Shown here piece after piece: positions 19,887 through 30,272 of a stretch of 31,246 bases of DNA. Made by a program: the position numbers and the translations under genes. The stretch lies in IMG/VR virus record IMGVR_UViG_3300046642_000283, positions 1 through 31,246 of that record. One strand, 5' to 3'. Under the pieces are notes generated by a model that worked only from the letters and a program-made list of their open reading frames with translations, was not told the DNA's origin and did not search any database. Each line of letters begins with the position of its first letter. Position 1 is the stretch's first letter. The DNA comes from a virus.

Positions 19887-20234
19887 CTAAGACCTCTGTC
19901 GCCTAGTCACCCAGCCCTGTCTAATTCGGTCTGAACGATCACGCGCTGGAATGTCTCTGATATTCTCACGCGGCGTCGCCCATCGCAAGTGAGCCGGATT
20001 AATGCAGAACCCTCCAATACACCCGATAGGCGTGCTATGCGCCGCTTGATGCTCAGACGTCGGAGGACGCCCGTAAGTTTCCTCACAAATAACCCTGGTA
20101 ATGTTCACAATCTTATAATTTTCACGAATTTGTGGCCTATCAAGATATTTCCCATAAACCGCGCCACTCCATAGGTAGCACCCAGTATTTGGCTCTGGGG
20201 TCCATTTATCAGAGTGTGTATCCAGCATACTCAT
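19887..20234 (-). CDS. HNH endonuclease, co-oriented with the late operon
   Basis: 115 residues, ATGA-coupled to the endolysin stop. The HNH-like core is EHQAAH (H62, H66), CINPAHLRWAT (about 77-87, H82) and ENIRD (N91), the pattern of phage HNH nucleases that make nicks or breaks. The start region (WTPEPNTGCYLWSGAV) is typical of this subfamily. The gene has a visibly higher AT content than its neighbours, consistent with acquisition by transfer. It sits between endolysin and portal, where packaging-related HNH enzymes and homing enzymes both occur. The former usually lie next to the terminase, so homing-type is preferred. Confidence 0.82.
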   Translation of the reverse strand: MSMLDTHSDKWTPEPNTGCYLWSGAVYGKYLDRPQIRENYKIVNITRVICEETYGRPPTSEHQAAHSTPIGCIGGFCINPAHLRWATPRENIRDIPARDRSDRIRQGWVTRRQRS

Positions 20235-20800
20235 GAGGTCAAAGCTTCTTTGAAGCTCGCGTAGTACCCAGCTATTAGGTCAGCTTTATCTAATCCGTTA
20301 ACAATCTTGCGCGCGTTGACCGGATCTTCGGTGTCGGCGTCGAAATATTGCGACAGCTTCGCGCCGGTGAACCAACCATTGATCATGCCGTCATACAGCA
20401 CCAGCGCGCTCGGCTCGTCCTCGAGCATCCGGTGCGGATACTCAACGCACGGAACGTCAAGATCATAGGTTTTCTTGAGGATTTCCTCAGCCTTGACGTA
20501 ATTTTCATACCACGTCAGCTGCACGAAGCCGCGGCCATAATAGCACTGATTGAACTCGCCCGCCGGCTCGCCATAGGACTTGCCGCCGCCCTGCCCATAT
20601 TCCTCAATCGGCCGCATCTCTTGCGCCGTCTCATGGAACGCGGTGGCAAGCGCGTAAGCCAGCCACCGCAAGTCGCGATCCGGGTGGAAATTCTCCCAGG
20701 TGTCGAGAAGATAGTTCATCCCATCAACCTGACGCTGCGAGAGAACGCCGTTGAAGACGCTCTCCCGTATCGATGAGAAAAACTGGTCGCGGTCGATCAT
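20231..20800 (-). CDS. Endolysin, GH19 chitinase-like muramidase
   Basis: 189 residues, no signal peptide. It carries the glycoside hydrolase 19 features: LAYALATAFHETAQ with the catalytic Glu at E57, a second acidic pair in PIEEYG (E66/E67), and YYGRGFVQLTWYENY (87-101) forming the substrate cleft. GH19 phage enzymes cut the glycan of peptidoglycan late in infection. Without a signal it would need a holin; two small membrane genes lie at 14.1-14.5 kb. The gene is ATGA-coupled both to the HPGHP-repeat protein and to the HNH gene. Confidence 0.92.
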   Translation of the reverse strand: MIDRDQFFSSIRESVFNGVLSQRQVDGMNYLLDTWENFHPDRDLRWLAYALATAFHETAQEMRPIEEYGQGGGKSYGEPAGEFNQCYYGRGFVQLTWYENYVKAEEILKKTYDLDVPCVEYPHRMLEDEPSALVLYDGMINGWFTGAKLSQYFDADTEDPVNARKIVNGLDKADLIAGYYASFKEALTS

Positions 20801-24665: not shown

Positions 24666-24694
24666 TTGACTAACCACTGCGCCTTAACTACATT
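24666..24694 (+). promoter_or_regulatory. Candidate early promoter
   Basis: TTGACT (24666-24671, 5/6), 17-base spacer, TACATT (24689-24694, 4/6). It is followed by a GAGGGA Shine-Dalgarno and the ATG at 24724. The same arrangement, TTGACA-17-TACATC, recurs at 25915. Confidence 0.55.
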
Positions 24695-24723
24695 GCTGCT
24701 GTTAACCACTGAGGGACATGCCC

Positions 24724-25104: not shown

Positions 25105-25133
25105 TCGCTTTCCGAAAGAAAGAGAGGGCATTC

Positions 25134-25158
25134 GAGGGCGCTTGCGCCCTCTTTTTTT
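25134..25158 (+). terminator. Rho-independent terminator
   Basis: GAGGGCG (25134-25140), loop CTTG, CGCCCTC (25145-25151), then seven T residues (25152-25158). It ends the first early transcription unit. Confidence 0.85.
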
Positions 25159-25207
25159 GTCCCAAAGGAAAGATGGGCATTCGGGCCAAGTTGATGATCT
25201 TTGAATG

Positions 25208-25330
25208 TGACGAACTTCTAAGTGGACCCAAAAAAGGTAAGGGCATATAGAAAGCCTATTCAACAGTCCGAAAAAGTACCATTCAACTCTTATCAGGCGC
25301 GTAATTTGACTAGAACTTAGAAGTTCGTCA
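25208..25330 (+). repeat. 16-bp perfect inverted repeat enclosing 91 bp
   Basis: TGACGAACTTCTAAGT (25208-25223) is the exact reverse complement of 25315-25330. The 91-base core is visibly AT-rich compared with its neighbours and holds no open frame. No clear target-site duplication is seen. It may be a MITE-like element, a paired operator, or a long-range stem in the leader of the next gene. Confidence 0.75.
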
Positions 25331-25384
25331 TGGTAAGTCCCCCACTGTGGTTGATATTCCACGGGAAACCAGAAAGGACGACCG

Positions 25385-25918
25385 ATGGCCGACTGGAATG
25401 TAGAAAAAGCGATGGCGAGCGTTCGCGCCAGTAATACAGGCGATGGGCGCAAATTGACATTCAACGAGCGCTGTGCGGCCTTCGCATTAATGTACGGAGG
25501 CGAAAAGAATATGGTCGTTGCGCGCGCCTTTGGCATAAGCGCGACGACCGCCTCCAACATCGCCGGATGTCTCGAATACGACCCTCATCCGTACCAGCGT
25601 GAGATGGTCTATGACGAGGCCAGCAAGGCGATGGTCGAGCGCACCCGCGAGCGCGATCATAACCGCACCCGCAACCCTAATCGCTCCCGCCGCTATGAAG
25701 ACGTCGCGCGCGAATTCGAAGCGCTGGGCGAGGCGGAATTCAATCGGCGCTATGTGACAGAAGAAATCTTCAATCGCGCCCGCTTGGCCAATCGCCAGTT
25801 GCGCGCGGGCGCAAGCCGCGATCCCCACGCCAAGCCGAAAGACCTTAGCAACATGTCGGCCCCCGAAATTCGGGCTTGGCTCGACAATCACCCCGACGAC
25901 CCGCGTAACCACTCTTGA
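25385..25918 (+). CDS. Helix-turn-helix DNA-binding protein
   Basis: 177 residues with AGAAAGGAC ahead of the ATG. Residues 23-60 (KLTFNERCAAFALMYGGEKN then MVVARAFGISATTASNI) make an HTH in which VVARAFGISATTASNI is the turn and recognition helix. The C-terminal half has GEAEFNRRYVTEEIFNRARL, which parallels the end of the HTH gene at 29940. It is probably an early regulator that binds phage promoters; the target is unknown. It is preceded by the 16-bp inverted repeat, which may be its operator (inference), and its stop overlaps the -35 of the next promoter. Confidence 0.72.
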   Translation: MADWNVEKAMASVRASNTGDGRKLTFNERCAAFALMYGGEKNMVVARAFGISATTASNIAGCLEYDPHPYQREMVYDEASKAMVERTRERDHNRTRNPNRSRRYEDVAREFEALGEAEFNRRYVTEEIFNRARLANRQLRAGASRDPHAKPKDLSNMSAPEIRAWLDNHPDDPRNHS

Positions 25919-27550: not shown

Positions 27551-27813
27551 GACGCCTGACCCACGCCGAGACGCGCGCCATCATGCACCCGCCGCGCACA
27601 ATTTATAGGGCCCAGCTCGAAACAAGAAATTTCGACTTTGAGGCCTACGGCGAGACGGCGGAAAAAGCCGCTCTCACCTTGCGCGAGGGTTGCCGGAAGC
27701 ACGTCACAGAATATCGGCTGATCCAAGCCGACTTCGACGAGGTGTACGGACCCGAAATTCGTGTCATGCCCATCGCCTTGGGCCAATGCTATCGCGACCG
27801 CGAGCCGCTATGA
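27547..27813 (+). CDS. Small hypothetical protein
   Basis: 88 residues from MRRLTHAETR, overlapping the previous stop as ATGA. Pattern strand-helix-strand (YRAQLETRNFDFEAYGET, KAALTLREGCRKH, YRLIQADFDEVYGPEIRVM) resembles small phage accessory proteins. No named family. It is ATGA-coupled to the methyltransferase. Confidence 0.65.
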   Translation: MRRLTHAETRAIMHPPRTIYRAQLETRNFDFEAYGETAEKAALTLREGCRKHVTEYRLIQADFDEVYGPEIRVMPIALGQCYRDREPL

Positions 27814-28469
27814 TCTACCTCAACGAGAACAACCCCCACGCGGCGCAGTGGCTCCGCAATCTCATTGCAAAGGGACATTTGCCCAATGGCATTGTCGATC
27901 AAAGATCAGTTGTCGCTGTTTCCCCCATCGAACTCAGCTTCACCCAGTGCCACTTCTTTGCAGGGATCGGGGGATGGCCCTTGGCCCTCTCCCTTGCCGG
28001 ATGGCCCAGCGAGCGGGAGGTCTGGACCGCCAGTCTCCCCTGCCAACCCCTATCGGTCGCGGGCAAGCGCAAAGGCGCGGCTGACGAGCGTCACCTCTGG
28101 CCCACCTTCAACGCGCTCGTTGACGAGCGCCGCCCTGCAACAATCTTTGGCGAGCAAGTTGCAAGCAAGGCTGGCAGGGAATGGCTCTCCGCTGTTCGCT
28201 CTGACTTGGAAGACCTTGGCTATGCCGTCGCTGCCGCATGTCTGCCAGCTTGCAGCGTCGGGGCTCCGCACCGCCGATACAGGTTTTTCTGGCTGGCCCA
28301 CCGCGACGACGCGGGACGGGAAGGGCGGCTATCAGGGCGGAAGGCTCCGCTGGCTCATGGGGTATCCGGTCGCGTGGGACGACTGCGCGCCTATGGTAAC
28401 GCCATCGTCCCGCAAGTCGCCGCCGCGTTCGTAAGCGCCTTCCTTGACGCCGAGGGCAAATCAGTCTAG
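27810..28469 (+). CDS. C5-cytosine DNA methyltransferase, short phage form
   Basis: 219 residues. Motif I is HFFAGIGGW (48-56, S-adenosylmethionine binding), motif IV SLPCQPLSVAGKR with catalytic C78, motif VI EQV (115-117, in place of the canonical ENV), motif VIII GAPHRRYRFF (151-160) and motif X AYGNAIVPQVAAAF (194-207). It probably methylates phage DNA to evade host restriction. Only about 35 residues separate motifs VIII and X, so the target-recognition domain is essentially missing; this is seen in other prophage members from memory. The start is ATGA-coupled. The +1 frame over most of its length is also open and looks coding. Confidence 0.85.
   Translation: MIYLNENNPHAAQWLRNLIAKGHLPNGIVDQRSVVAVSPIELSFTQCHFFAGIGGWPLALSLAGWPSEREVWTASLPCQPLSVAGKRKGAADERHLWPTFNALVDERRPATIFGEQVASKAGREWLSAVRSDLEDLGYAVAAACLPACSVGAPHRRYRFFWLAHRDDAGREGRLSGRKAPLAHGVSGRVGRLRAYGNAIVPQVAAAFVSAFLDAEGKSV
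27886..28434 (+). CDS. Overlapping +1-frame protein nested in the methyltransferase gene
   Basis: 182 residues from MALSIKDQLSLFP, entirely inside the methyltransferase gene. AAAGGGACATTTGCCCA precedes the ATG and resembles the AAGGACATGCC early leader. The product has features I recall from phage open frames overlapping such methyltransferases: FALTWKTLAMPS, TADTGFSGWPTATTRDGK, RWLMGYPVAWDDCAP and a final SSRKSPPRS. The first half is Ser/Pro/Gly-rich. It might supply a partner or target-recognition function missing from the methyltransferase; that is speculation. The alternative is a fortuitous open frame in GC-rich DNA. Confidence 0.6.
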   Translation: MALSIKDQLSLFPPSNSASPSATSLQGSGDGPWPSPLPDGPASGRSGPPVSPANPYRSRASAKARLTSVTSGPPSTRSLTSAALQQSLASKLQARLAGNGSPLFALTWKTLAMPSLPHVCQLAASGLRTADTGFSGWPTATTRDGKGGYQGGRLRWLMGYPVAWDDCAPMVTPSSRKSPPRS

Positions 28470-29737: not shown

Positions 29738-29943
29738 GCAATCTCTGGACGAAACTCTACGCGGCCAAGCGCCGCGCCACCGACCGCGCATTGCTCGCCT
29801 CAATGGAGCGCGAGATCGCTCAAGCCGAGAAGGCCGCTGCAAGGGCCGGGGAGCGGCCTTGGAACCCCGAGACGGCTCCAGGGCATCAAATCACTAAGGA
29901 AGAGCGCGAGCGCATTTCTCGCGCCTTTGGGAGACCCGCATGA
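29734..29943 (+). CDS. Small basic helical protein
   Basis: 69 residues, from MSNLWTKLYAAKRR, ATGA-coupled both ways. A long Lys/Arg/Ala helix (ALLASMEREIAQAEKAAARA) is followed by ITKEERERISRAFGRP. No family recognised. Confidence 0.65.
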   Translation: MSNLWTKLYAAKRRATDRALLASMEREIAQAEKAAARAGERPWNPETAPGHQITKEERERISRAFGRPA

Positions 29944-30272
29944 GCCTAAACCTCGATAAAACCCTGTTGCGCCGTGCGCGCCGCCGACCCGCGCCCAACG
30001 AGCTCACTGAGGCCGAATGTATCGCCATTAATTTGTTCTGGCGTGAAGGGGCGAGCGTGACCGTGCTTGCCAAGGTTTTTGGCCGCGCGCGTAACACCAT
30101 CTATTATTGGTGCTTGACCGGCGACGCCGCCAGCTACCCGCGCAATAACAAGCGGGCGCGCGAGATCAACAATATCATTGAAGAGATGGGCGTCGAGGCT
30201 GCGCGGGCCAAATACATCACGCCTGAGTTGGTGACTGCCGTGGATAAGGCCAATAAGCAGCACGCAGCATGA
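29940..30272 (+). CDS. Helix-turn-helix protein related to the 25385 gene
   Basis: 110 residues, ATGA-coupled. The HTH is TEAECIAINLFWREGASVTV followed by LAKVFGRARNTIYYWC. The end (EMGVEAARAKYITPELVTAV, then DKANKQ) parallels GEAEFNRRYVTEEIFNRARL and ANRQ in the 25385 gene in spacing and residues, so the two probably share a domain. Likely early DNA-binding regulator or a small-terminase-like fold; its target is unknown. Confidence 0.72.
   Translation: MSLNLDKTLLRRARRRPAPNELTEAECIAINLFWREGASVTVLAKVFGRARNTIYYWCLTGDAASYPRNNKRAREINNIIEEMGVEAARAKYITPELVTAVDKANKQHAA

Follow-up and report, generated by a model that had tools for sequence, protein, structure and literature searches.

The inverted repeat in the window

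The locus considered here raises the question of what a perfect inverted repeat is doing directly ahead of an HTH gene in a viral genome. In the window, that is, the whole stretch of 31,246 bases that was analysed, two arms on the + strand, at 25208-25223 (TGACGAACTTCTAAGT) and 25315-25330 (ACTTAGAAGTTCGTCA), are complementary at 16/16 positions and enclose a loop of 91 nt (25224-25314, assigned to neither strand). They are followed on the + strand by a gene encoding 177 aa (25385-25918), which is the proposed partner of the repeat and is regarded as an HTH protein gene from the ORF list, an alignment of homologues and a structure model. An earlier note on this DNA had described such a perfect 16-bp repeat with a 91-base spacer just upstream of an HTH gene, and had judged the match to be far beyond chance in 280 bases; both statements hold, since none of 2000 dinucleotide shuffles of 25105-25384 (280 nt) equalled the repeat by ungapped inverted-repeat score. 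The loop, described there as AT-rich, is indeed so relative to the genome (40.7% G+C vs 60.1% for the window). The repeat is also the sole match in a scan of the whole window (span of at most 260, score of at least 14), and the arm 16-mer occurs at up to three mismatches at two sites of the window, which are the two arms themselves.

Several signals surround the arms on the + strand. An intrinsic-terminator-like site (25134-25158), with a stem at 25134-25151 and then a T run, is located upstream of the left arm, and block A (ATGGGCATTCGGGCC, 25173-25187), which matches TTTGGCCTCCGGGCC at 11/15 positions as scored without shuffle control, lies 20 nt ahead of this arm. Inside the loop, block C (CTTATCAGGCGCGTAA, 25289-25304) matches its consensus TTTCTCACGCGCGTAA at 13/16 positions, and the right arm starts 10 nt further on. 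The right arm lies within a local near-palindrome, GAACTTAGAAGTTC (25313-25326), and is overlapped by the best promoter-like match before the HTH gene (TTGACT-17 nt-CATGGT, 25306-25334), which is weak (p=0.13 vs shuffles).

Elsewhere in the window, portal- and terminase-like genes are carried on the - strand, with the large terminase and the portal gene separated by HNH endonuclease-like and endolysin-like genes (19887-20800, - strand), and a run of smaller + strand ORFs begins at about 24.3 kb. A promoter-like sequence (TTGACT-17-TACATT, 24666-24694, + strand) precedes the gene at 24718, and a similar TTGAC(A/T)AGGAC...TATGTG stretch was seen by eye at the corresponding place in relatives. 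Further along the + strand, two overlapping ORFs in different frames (27690-28469 and 27865-28434) both match DNA methyltransferase families (phrog_363, E 2e-69; phrog_1008, E 9.8e-16), for which a frameshift, a two-gene overlap or a chance match in one frame are all possible. A second HTH-like gene at 29940-30272 (+ strand) matches HTH_38 (0.0014) and HTH_23 (0.0017), both under the Pfam cut-offs, as well as phrog_664 (2.4e-5).

The HTH protein and its cultured relative

The AlphaFold model of the window HTH protein (pLDDT 87.8, 28 sequences) shows N-terminal helices in an HTH-like arrangement along with a beta hairpin and a further helical region, and M1 and Y104 are the only invariant residues in an alignment of 28 homologs. 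No Pfam or NCBIfam family exceeded its curated cut-off for this protein, PHROGs gave no match at E 0.001 or 0.1, and the best E in a fold search against the PDB was 0.17; the best single hints are HTH_38 (0.00021, for one member) and DUF6887 (0.0022, for the window protein). Two scans of genome_contigs found no relative of the HTH family, and four protein queries against the phage collection found vB_OspP_OH alone.

Comparison of the model with the viral structure library BFVD revealed one match at E<0.001, a 226-aa protein of Ochrobactrum phage vB_OspP_OH (NC_070933.1; E 3.4e-4). This protein, the only named relative found, is taken to be gp08 from the CDS length and the sequence pattern of the family. 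Upstream of gp08, a repeat with arms at 1674-1718 and 1780-1824 and a loop of 61 (score 35) was equalled by 0/100 shuffles; the 350-nt upstream region excludes the left arm and scores 23. A second, stronger repeat of this phage (L178) lies between the divergent gp03 and gp04, with arms around 764-797 and 932-968 (0/100 shuffles) and a near-perfect core (23/23, 775-797 and 932-954, loop 134). By eye, its arm ends carry TAGACA-17 nt-TAAAAT or TAGAGT, and this repeat apparently has mirrored promoters. The gp08 region of this phage (PMC7139368) resembles the window in having an HTH relative with a significant repeat upstream, and vB_OspP_OH differs in its second repeat, between gp03 and gp04.

Recurrence among related phages

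Relatives of the window were collected by a portal search (33 loci) and a terminase search (the best 80 of 129 loci encoding a relative). Profile A2, made from eight HTH proteins, was compared with the ORFs of 154 loci and gave 30 distinct strong matches (E<1e-9). Dropping L083, a truncated duplicate, and adding the window resulted in a recurrence set of 30 upstream regions; L044, which duplicates L070 at the HTH locus, was omitted from most later counts. For L041 the start codon was assigned manually, and for L102 the one used is probably internal, which affects distances, not the repeat test.

An inverted repeat recurs ahead of the HTH gene family across this phage group. By gapped inverted-repeat score, 22 of the 30 upstream regions (350 nt, window included) beat 150/150 dinucleotide shuffles. 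The repeats of L107, L041, L110 and L111 were marginal, with 1, 2, 2 and 3 shuffles of 150 as good, and no significant repeat was detected in L147, L119, L017 and L022 (9, 16, 26 and 147 shuffles as good, respectively). A score of at least 30 was reached by 17/29 upstream windows vs 2/2121 other 350-nt windows of the same loci. Many relatives carry a second, weaker HTH homolog that has no long repeat upstream; the upstream regions of fifteen weaker homologs, mostly this second HTH gene of the same phages, scored 13-23. The repeat is likewise missing ahead of the HTH genes of L172, L173 and L174 (upstream score 15-16) and of the HTH homolog of G014, which is preceded, by eye, by a plain TTGACA/TAAAAT promoter.

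The 21 non-duplicate repeats have arms of 16-63 columns with an identity of 75-100% and loops of 51-139 nt, and their right arms end 18-186 nt before the start codon used. Direct repeats in the upstream regions beat 200/200 shuffles in L105 and L138 only (0 as good in each, compared with 1 in L115 and 5 in L017); those of L105, L138 and L115 differ from the arm pairs, and that of L017 may be a site pair in direct orientation. In L090 (record G016), the element at about 8.9-9.1 kb has an inner perfect pair, CGGTACTACCGCA / TGCGGTAGTACCG, in addition to its long arms, and an imperfect inverted repeat takes up most of the intergenic sequence.

The arms of different phages have no more sequence in common than expected by chance: among the 153 pairs formed by 18 phages, 8 scored at least 18, vs 8.6 expected under a column-shuffle null. 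A common motif had seemed to be in excess by eye and under a weaker null, and the excess vanished under the column-shuffle null. The earlier note had counted a lack of conservation of the arms against the element. As far as the sequence of the arms is concerned this conservation is absent, and as far as the presence of inverted arms is concerned it is found. What was a single odd repeat is now a pattern across a phage group, and a long inverted repeat before an HTH gene provides a sequence-independent signature for finding such cassettes.

Copies of the element

The unit had also been called MITE-like, with a search for further copies in relatives proposed as a check. No such copies were found: the window contains a single unit, and each arm pair was found only at its own locus in 21/21 repeats, many of these phages being represented by 7-15 kb of DNA and the cut-off being too strict for weak copies. 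The loop 24-mer had no match in viral_contigs, a search from which records very near the window may be absent, and no second contig carrying the window loop was found there. Thirteen viral contigs contain a single exact copy of the arm 16-mer, which is taken for chance because none of those records encodes the HTH family. No DNA similar to the element was found among phage and plasmid records, and the flanks of the window repeat have at most a 2-base TG on either side, with no empty site found for comparison. A mobile element was rejected, as extra copies are absent from the window, viral_contigs, and phage and plasmid records. An invertible promoter switch has a similar outline to the locus, namely, a segment of about 100 bp, enclosed by short inverted arms, ahead of a gene; this idea is disfavoured and, like a MITE, highly improbable. 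Tyrosine recombinases (PF00589) and serine recombinases (PF00239) were each found in 0/16 related records, a set that does not include the window and whose records may be incomplete. Furthermore, extra copies are absent from related loci as well, and as many as 25% of columns can differ between the two arms.

A contig from another sample (L033, L048) is identical to the window over 6628 bases and ends at 25207, one base before the left arm. Such an end may be what an assembly fork between two cassettes would produce; it is a single end, and coincidence is possible.

Apparent exchange of the repeat and the HTH gene

Across 351 pairs, terminase identity and HTH identity are correlated (Spearman 0.49), and some pairs resemble each other in both proteins, such as L017 and the window (87%/64%) and L025 and L021 (86%/62%), in which the arms are not common. 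Terminase vs HTH identity is, by comparison, 95%/23% for L147-L117, 93%/32% for L118-L111, 93%/31% for L102-L099 and 91%/39% for L119-L108. DNA similarity was mapped for nine pairs, of which two (L118-L111 and L147-L117) were well resolved and seven patchier. In L118-L111, similarity stops at -347/-296, before the left arms, and returns at +671/+732, where the HTH genes end, at 93%. In L147-L117, it stops at -250/-269 and returns at +826/+654. L170 and L017 are 89-97% alike until -248, which is some 22 nt short of the L170 left arm; downstream they are 93-95% alike, and the stretch between is unmatched. Short matching stretches occur inside the HTH gene in L119-L108, part of this gene is common to the window and L017, and the match of L170 and L102 is continuous through flank, repeat and HTH gene.

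The same comparison was made by zone for 68 pairs whose terminase zones match over 900 nt or more. At least 60 nt were common in the repeat zone in 0 pairs, in the upstream zone (-900 to -350) in 20 and in the downstream 1.2 kb in 24; the HTH gene was in common over at least 60 nt in 9 pairs and over at least 150 nt in 3. L147 and L017 have no significant repeat, yet they are partners in two of the three clear examples of exchange; therefore, L147-L117 and L170-L017 show exchange of the stretch, not of repeat for repeat. Together, these alignments make it quite likely that the repeat and the HTH gene constitute an exchanged specificity cassette. The regulator gene and its putative cis sites appear to be exchanged jointly between related phages, as is characteristic of temperate-phage immunity cassettes. 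Their divergence greatly exceeds that of the remaining genome, and they seem to travel as one unit among phages in whose records (16) no integrase was found.

A closely related pair shows how the parts of one cassette change. L102 and L170 carry the same cassette, with HTH proteins 99.5% identical over 201 aa and a flank common to both apart from indels (gapped alignment). The arms differ at 4/88 positions vs 14/65 in the loop (p=0.002), and the outer flanks at 2/101 (p=0.42 vs the arms). On these counts, the loop evolves fast, the arms and the outer flanks are equally slow, and the idea of the arms as an island of conservation was rejected. By eye, three of the arm changes break a match and one makes one, and 0/4 are compensated. 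The pattern, seen in one pair, mildly favours sequence recognition over pairing alone.

Blocks and promoters around the arms

The best match to block C is at least 12/16 in 17/29 upstream regions, and it ends 0-25 nt ahead of the right arm in 15/25 regions with a repeat. At 13/16 or better, 13 matches lie within 400 nt of an HTH start and 2 elsewhere in 399 kb (2 expected), and at 12/16 or better, 21 lie near an HTH start and 24 elsewhere in 399 kb (16 expected); as the consensus was drawn from the same sequences, this enrichment is partly by construction. Block A is matched at 11/15 in 17/29 regions, mostly upstream of the left arm, by a count made without shuffle control. A CGCG-type motif is contained in the arms of L128, L107, L110 and L115. 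Promoter matches before the HTH genes are weak (p<0.05 in 8/29); many sequences have their best match at or close to the right arm, its position relative to the arm being variable. At the left arm, matches to a leftward promoter in mirror image scored low in most sequences, this side being assessed without shuffle control.

Alternative explanations

Complementarity that recurs without likeness of sequence between phages could reflect pairing of the DNA itself, with a cruciform or a single-strand hairpin (stem of about 16-60 bp, loop of about 50-140 nt) serving as a structural mark. Such a mark might define an origin of replication or be a hairpin that a common phage factor recognizes at block C, and the cassette's HTH protein would then serve as initiator or as accessory factor. 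The almost constant inverted orientation (direct repeats beat 200/200 shuffles only in L105 and L138, where they are not the arms) and the enrichment of block C at the HTH locus are consistent with this idea. So are the arm mismatches (n=98: 16 G.U, 25 A.C, 57 other), whose types are near chance with no excess of G.U. A structural mark of this kind is nevertheless rather unlikely. Long loops make cruciform extrusion costly, and loops here reach 139 nt; in addition, the uncompensated arm changes of L102-L170 speak against pairing, GC skew gave no origin signal, and exchange together with a DNA-binding gene is expected under either model. Prim-Pol PF09250 was found in 1/16 records, under its cut-off. 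The arbitrary sequence of the arms, their likeness of 75-100% and the near-chance mismatch types would also be expected if a mutational or replicative process, e.g., template switching, made the repeats and left the arms as functionless, decaying copies. This explanation is improbable, as the arms are slower than the loop in L102-L170 and the process would have to be confined to one spot, given the rarity of this class of repeat elsewhere (2/2121 windows).

The arms could, on the other hand, be the closing stem of an RNA, a leader or a small RNA transcribed from either strand. Folding of the whole elements is stable on either strand (mean z -6.5 and -6.7), which is expected of long inverted repeats in general, and A.C mismatches, equivalent to G.U on the opposite strand, slightly exceed chance (25/98, p 0.03). 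The loops are unstructured on average (mean z -0.45 and -0.83), L070 and L128 being exceptions, and a stem that tolerates G.U within a transcript, as in a structured RNA leader, is not indicated by the + strand mismatches (16/98, the chance level). Nothing in the window reached the gathering score of an Rfam family, and three sub-threshold matches around the repeat are chance-like. The long-range leader stem suggested by the earlier note fares poorly as well, considering the terminator-like site upstream of the left arm, the promoter match overlapping the right arm (weak, p=0.13) and the missing enrichment of G.U. An RNA stem is thus disfavoured and has little probability.

Proposed working of the cassette

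A pair of operator sites for the HTH protein is the best supported reading of the repeat from the sequence comparisons, because recurrence and exchange tie the repeat to the HTH gene and because in many sequences the right arm coincides with, or lies close to, the best promoter match. Two like sites, one of them at a promoter, are what a looping pair would present, the promoter match of the window being weak (p=0.13). It is plausible, though tentative, that the HTH protein recognizes the two arms as a pair of sites at the promoter of its own gene, in an immunity-like arrangement, and binding of the arms by this protein is put forward with similar reserve. The repeat would be the cis half and the HTH protein (25385-25918) the trans half of a two-part specificity cassette, in which the HTH protein of each phage would bind its own two arms. 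With the right arm on or near the promoter of the HTH gene and the left arm roughly 70-170 bp off, the protein would bridge the arms in their inverted geometry. Bridging would control the early transcript of the HTH gene itself, probably by switching it off, the choice of repression over activation being a guess. A resident cassette might also silence any newly arriving phage that carries its type, and cassettes would then be under pressure to diversify, much as in immunity or incompatibility systems.

Against the paired-site model, the arms reach 63 columns, more than a single dimer site would require, and have no common sequence. Internal palindromes in the arms of 18 phages show no excess (76 vs 77.7 expected), and arm spacing shows no helical phasing (Rayleigh p 0.45, 21 repeats). 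The promoter matches are weak and their position relative to the right arm is variable. Also unfavourable are the HTH genes that lack a significant repeat, the L102-L170 outer flanks, conserved to the same degree as the arms, and the overall correlation of terminase and HTH identity. Phasing is not needed for all DNA loops. Given that dyads and phasing are missing, that the arms are long and that they are inverted almost without exception, there is room for a role in DNA structure or as an origin. In a broader and more speculative proposal, which is doubtful at present, apparently virulent podophage-type phages would carry hypervariable, exchangeable cassettes, each composed of a member of a hitherto unnamed HTH protein family and its cognate long inverted arms beside a conserved motif. 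These cassettes would act as self/non-self switches of an immunity or incompatibility type, with the arms recognized perhaps as much by structure as through a conserved operator.

Comparison with known systems

Within the terms searched, no paper was recognised as describing this element. A similar arrangement is the DNA-looping operator pair of RcoLS20 of plasmid pLS20, in which a protein that regulates its own expression bridges two operators, of which one overlaps a promoter (PMC4207663). The likeness lies in the two sites, one overlapping the promoter match, and in the proposed autoregulation. The differences are that bridging and binding are predicted here, that helical phasing is not observed, and that the HTH protein matches no named family with confidence.

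If the predicted binding is true, immunity-like specificity would be evolving in phages with no known lysogenic life, and some twenty ready regulator/site pairs would be at hand for studying the diversification of HTH specificity. Lambdoid phages possess repressor/operator immunity regions. Cluster A mycobacteriophages likewise exemplify the repressor/operator immunity systems of temperate phages (PMC6550527). Compared with these temperate-phage systems, an integrase (PF00589) was found in 0/16 related records, which are possibly incomplete, and the arms occur at one locus only, are long and inverted, and have no palindrome excess, with the immunity itself being putative. Common to both is a DNA-binding protein that diversifies together with its cognate sites, and in the present phages the protein and its sites are apparently exchanged as one block in otherwise similar genomes.
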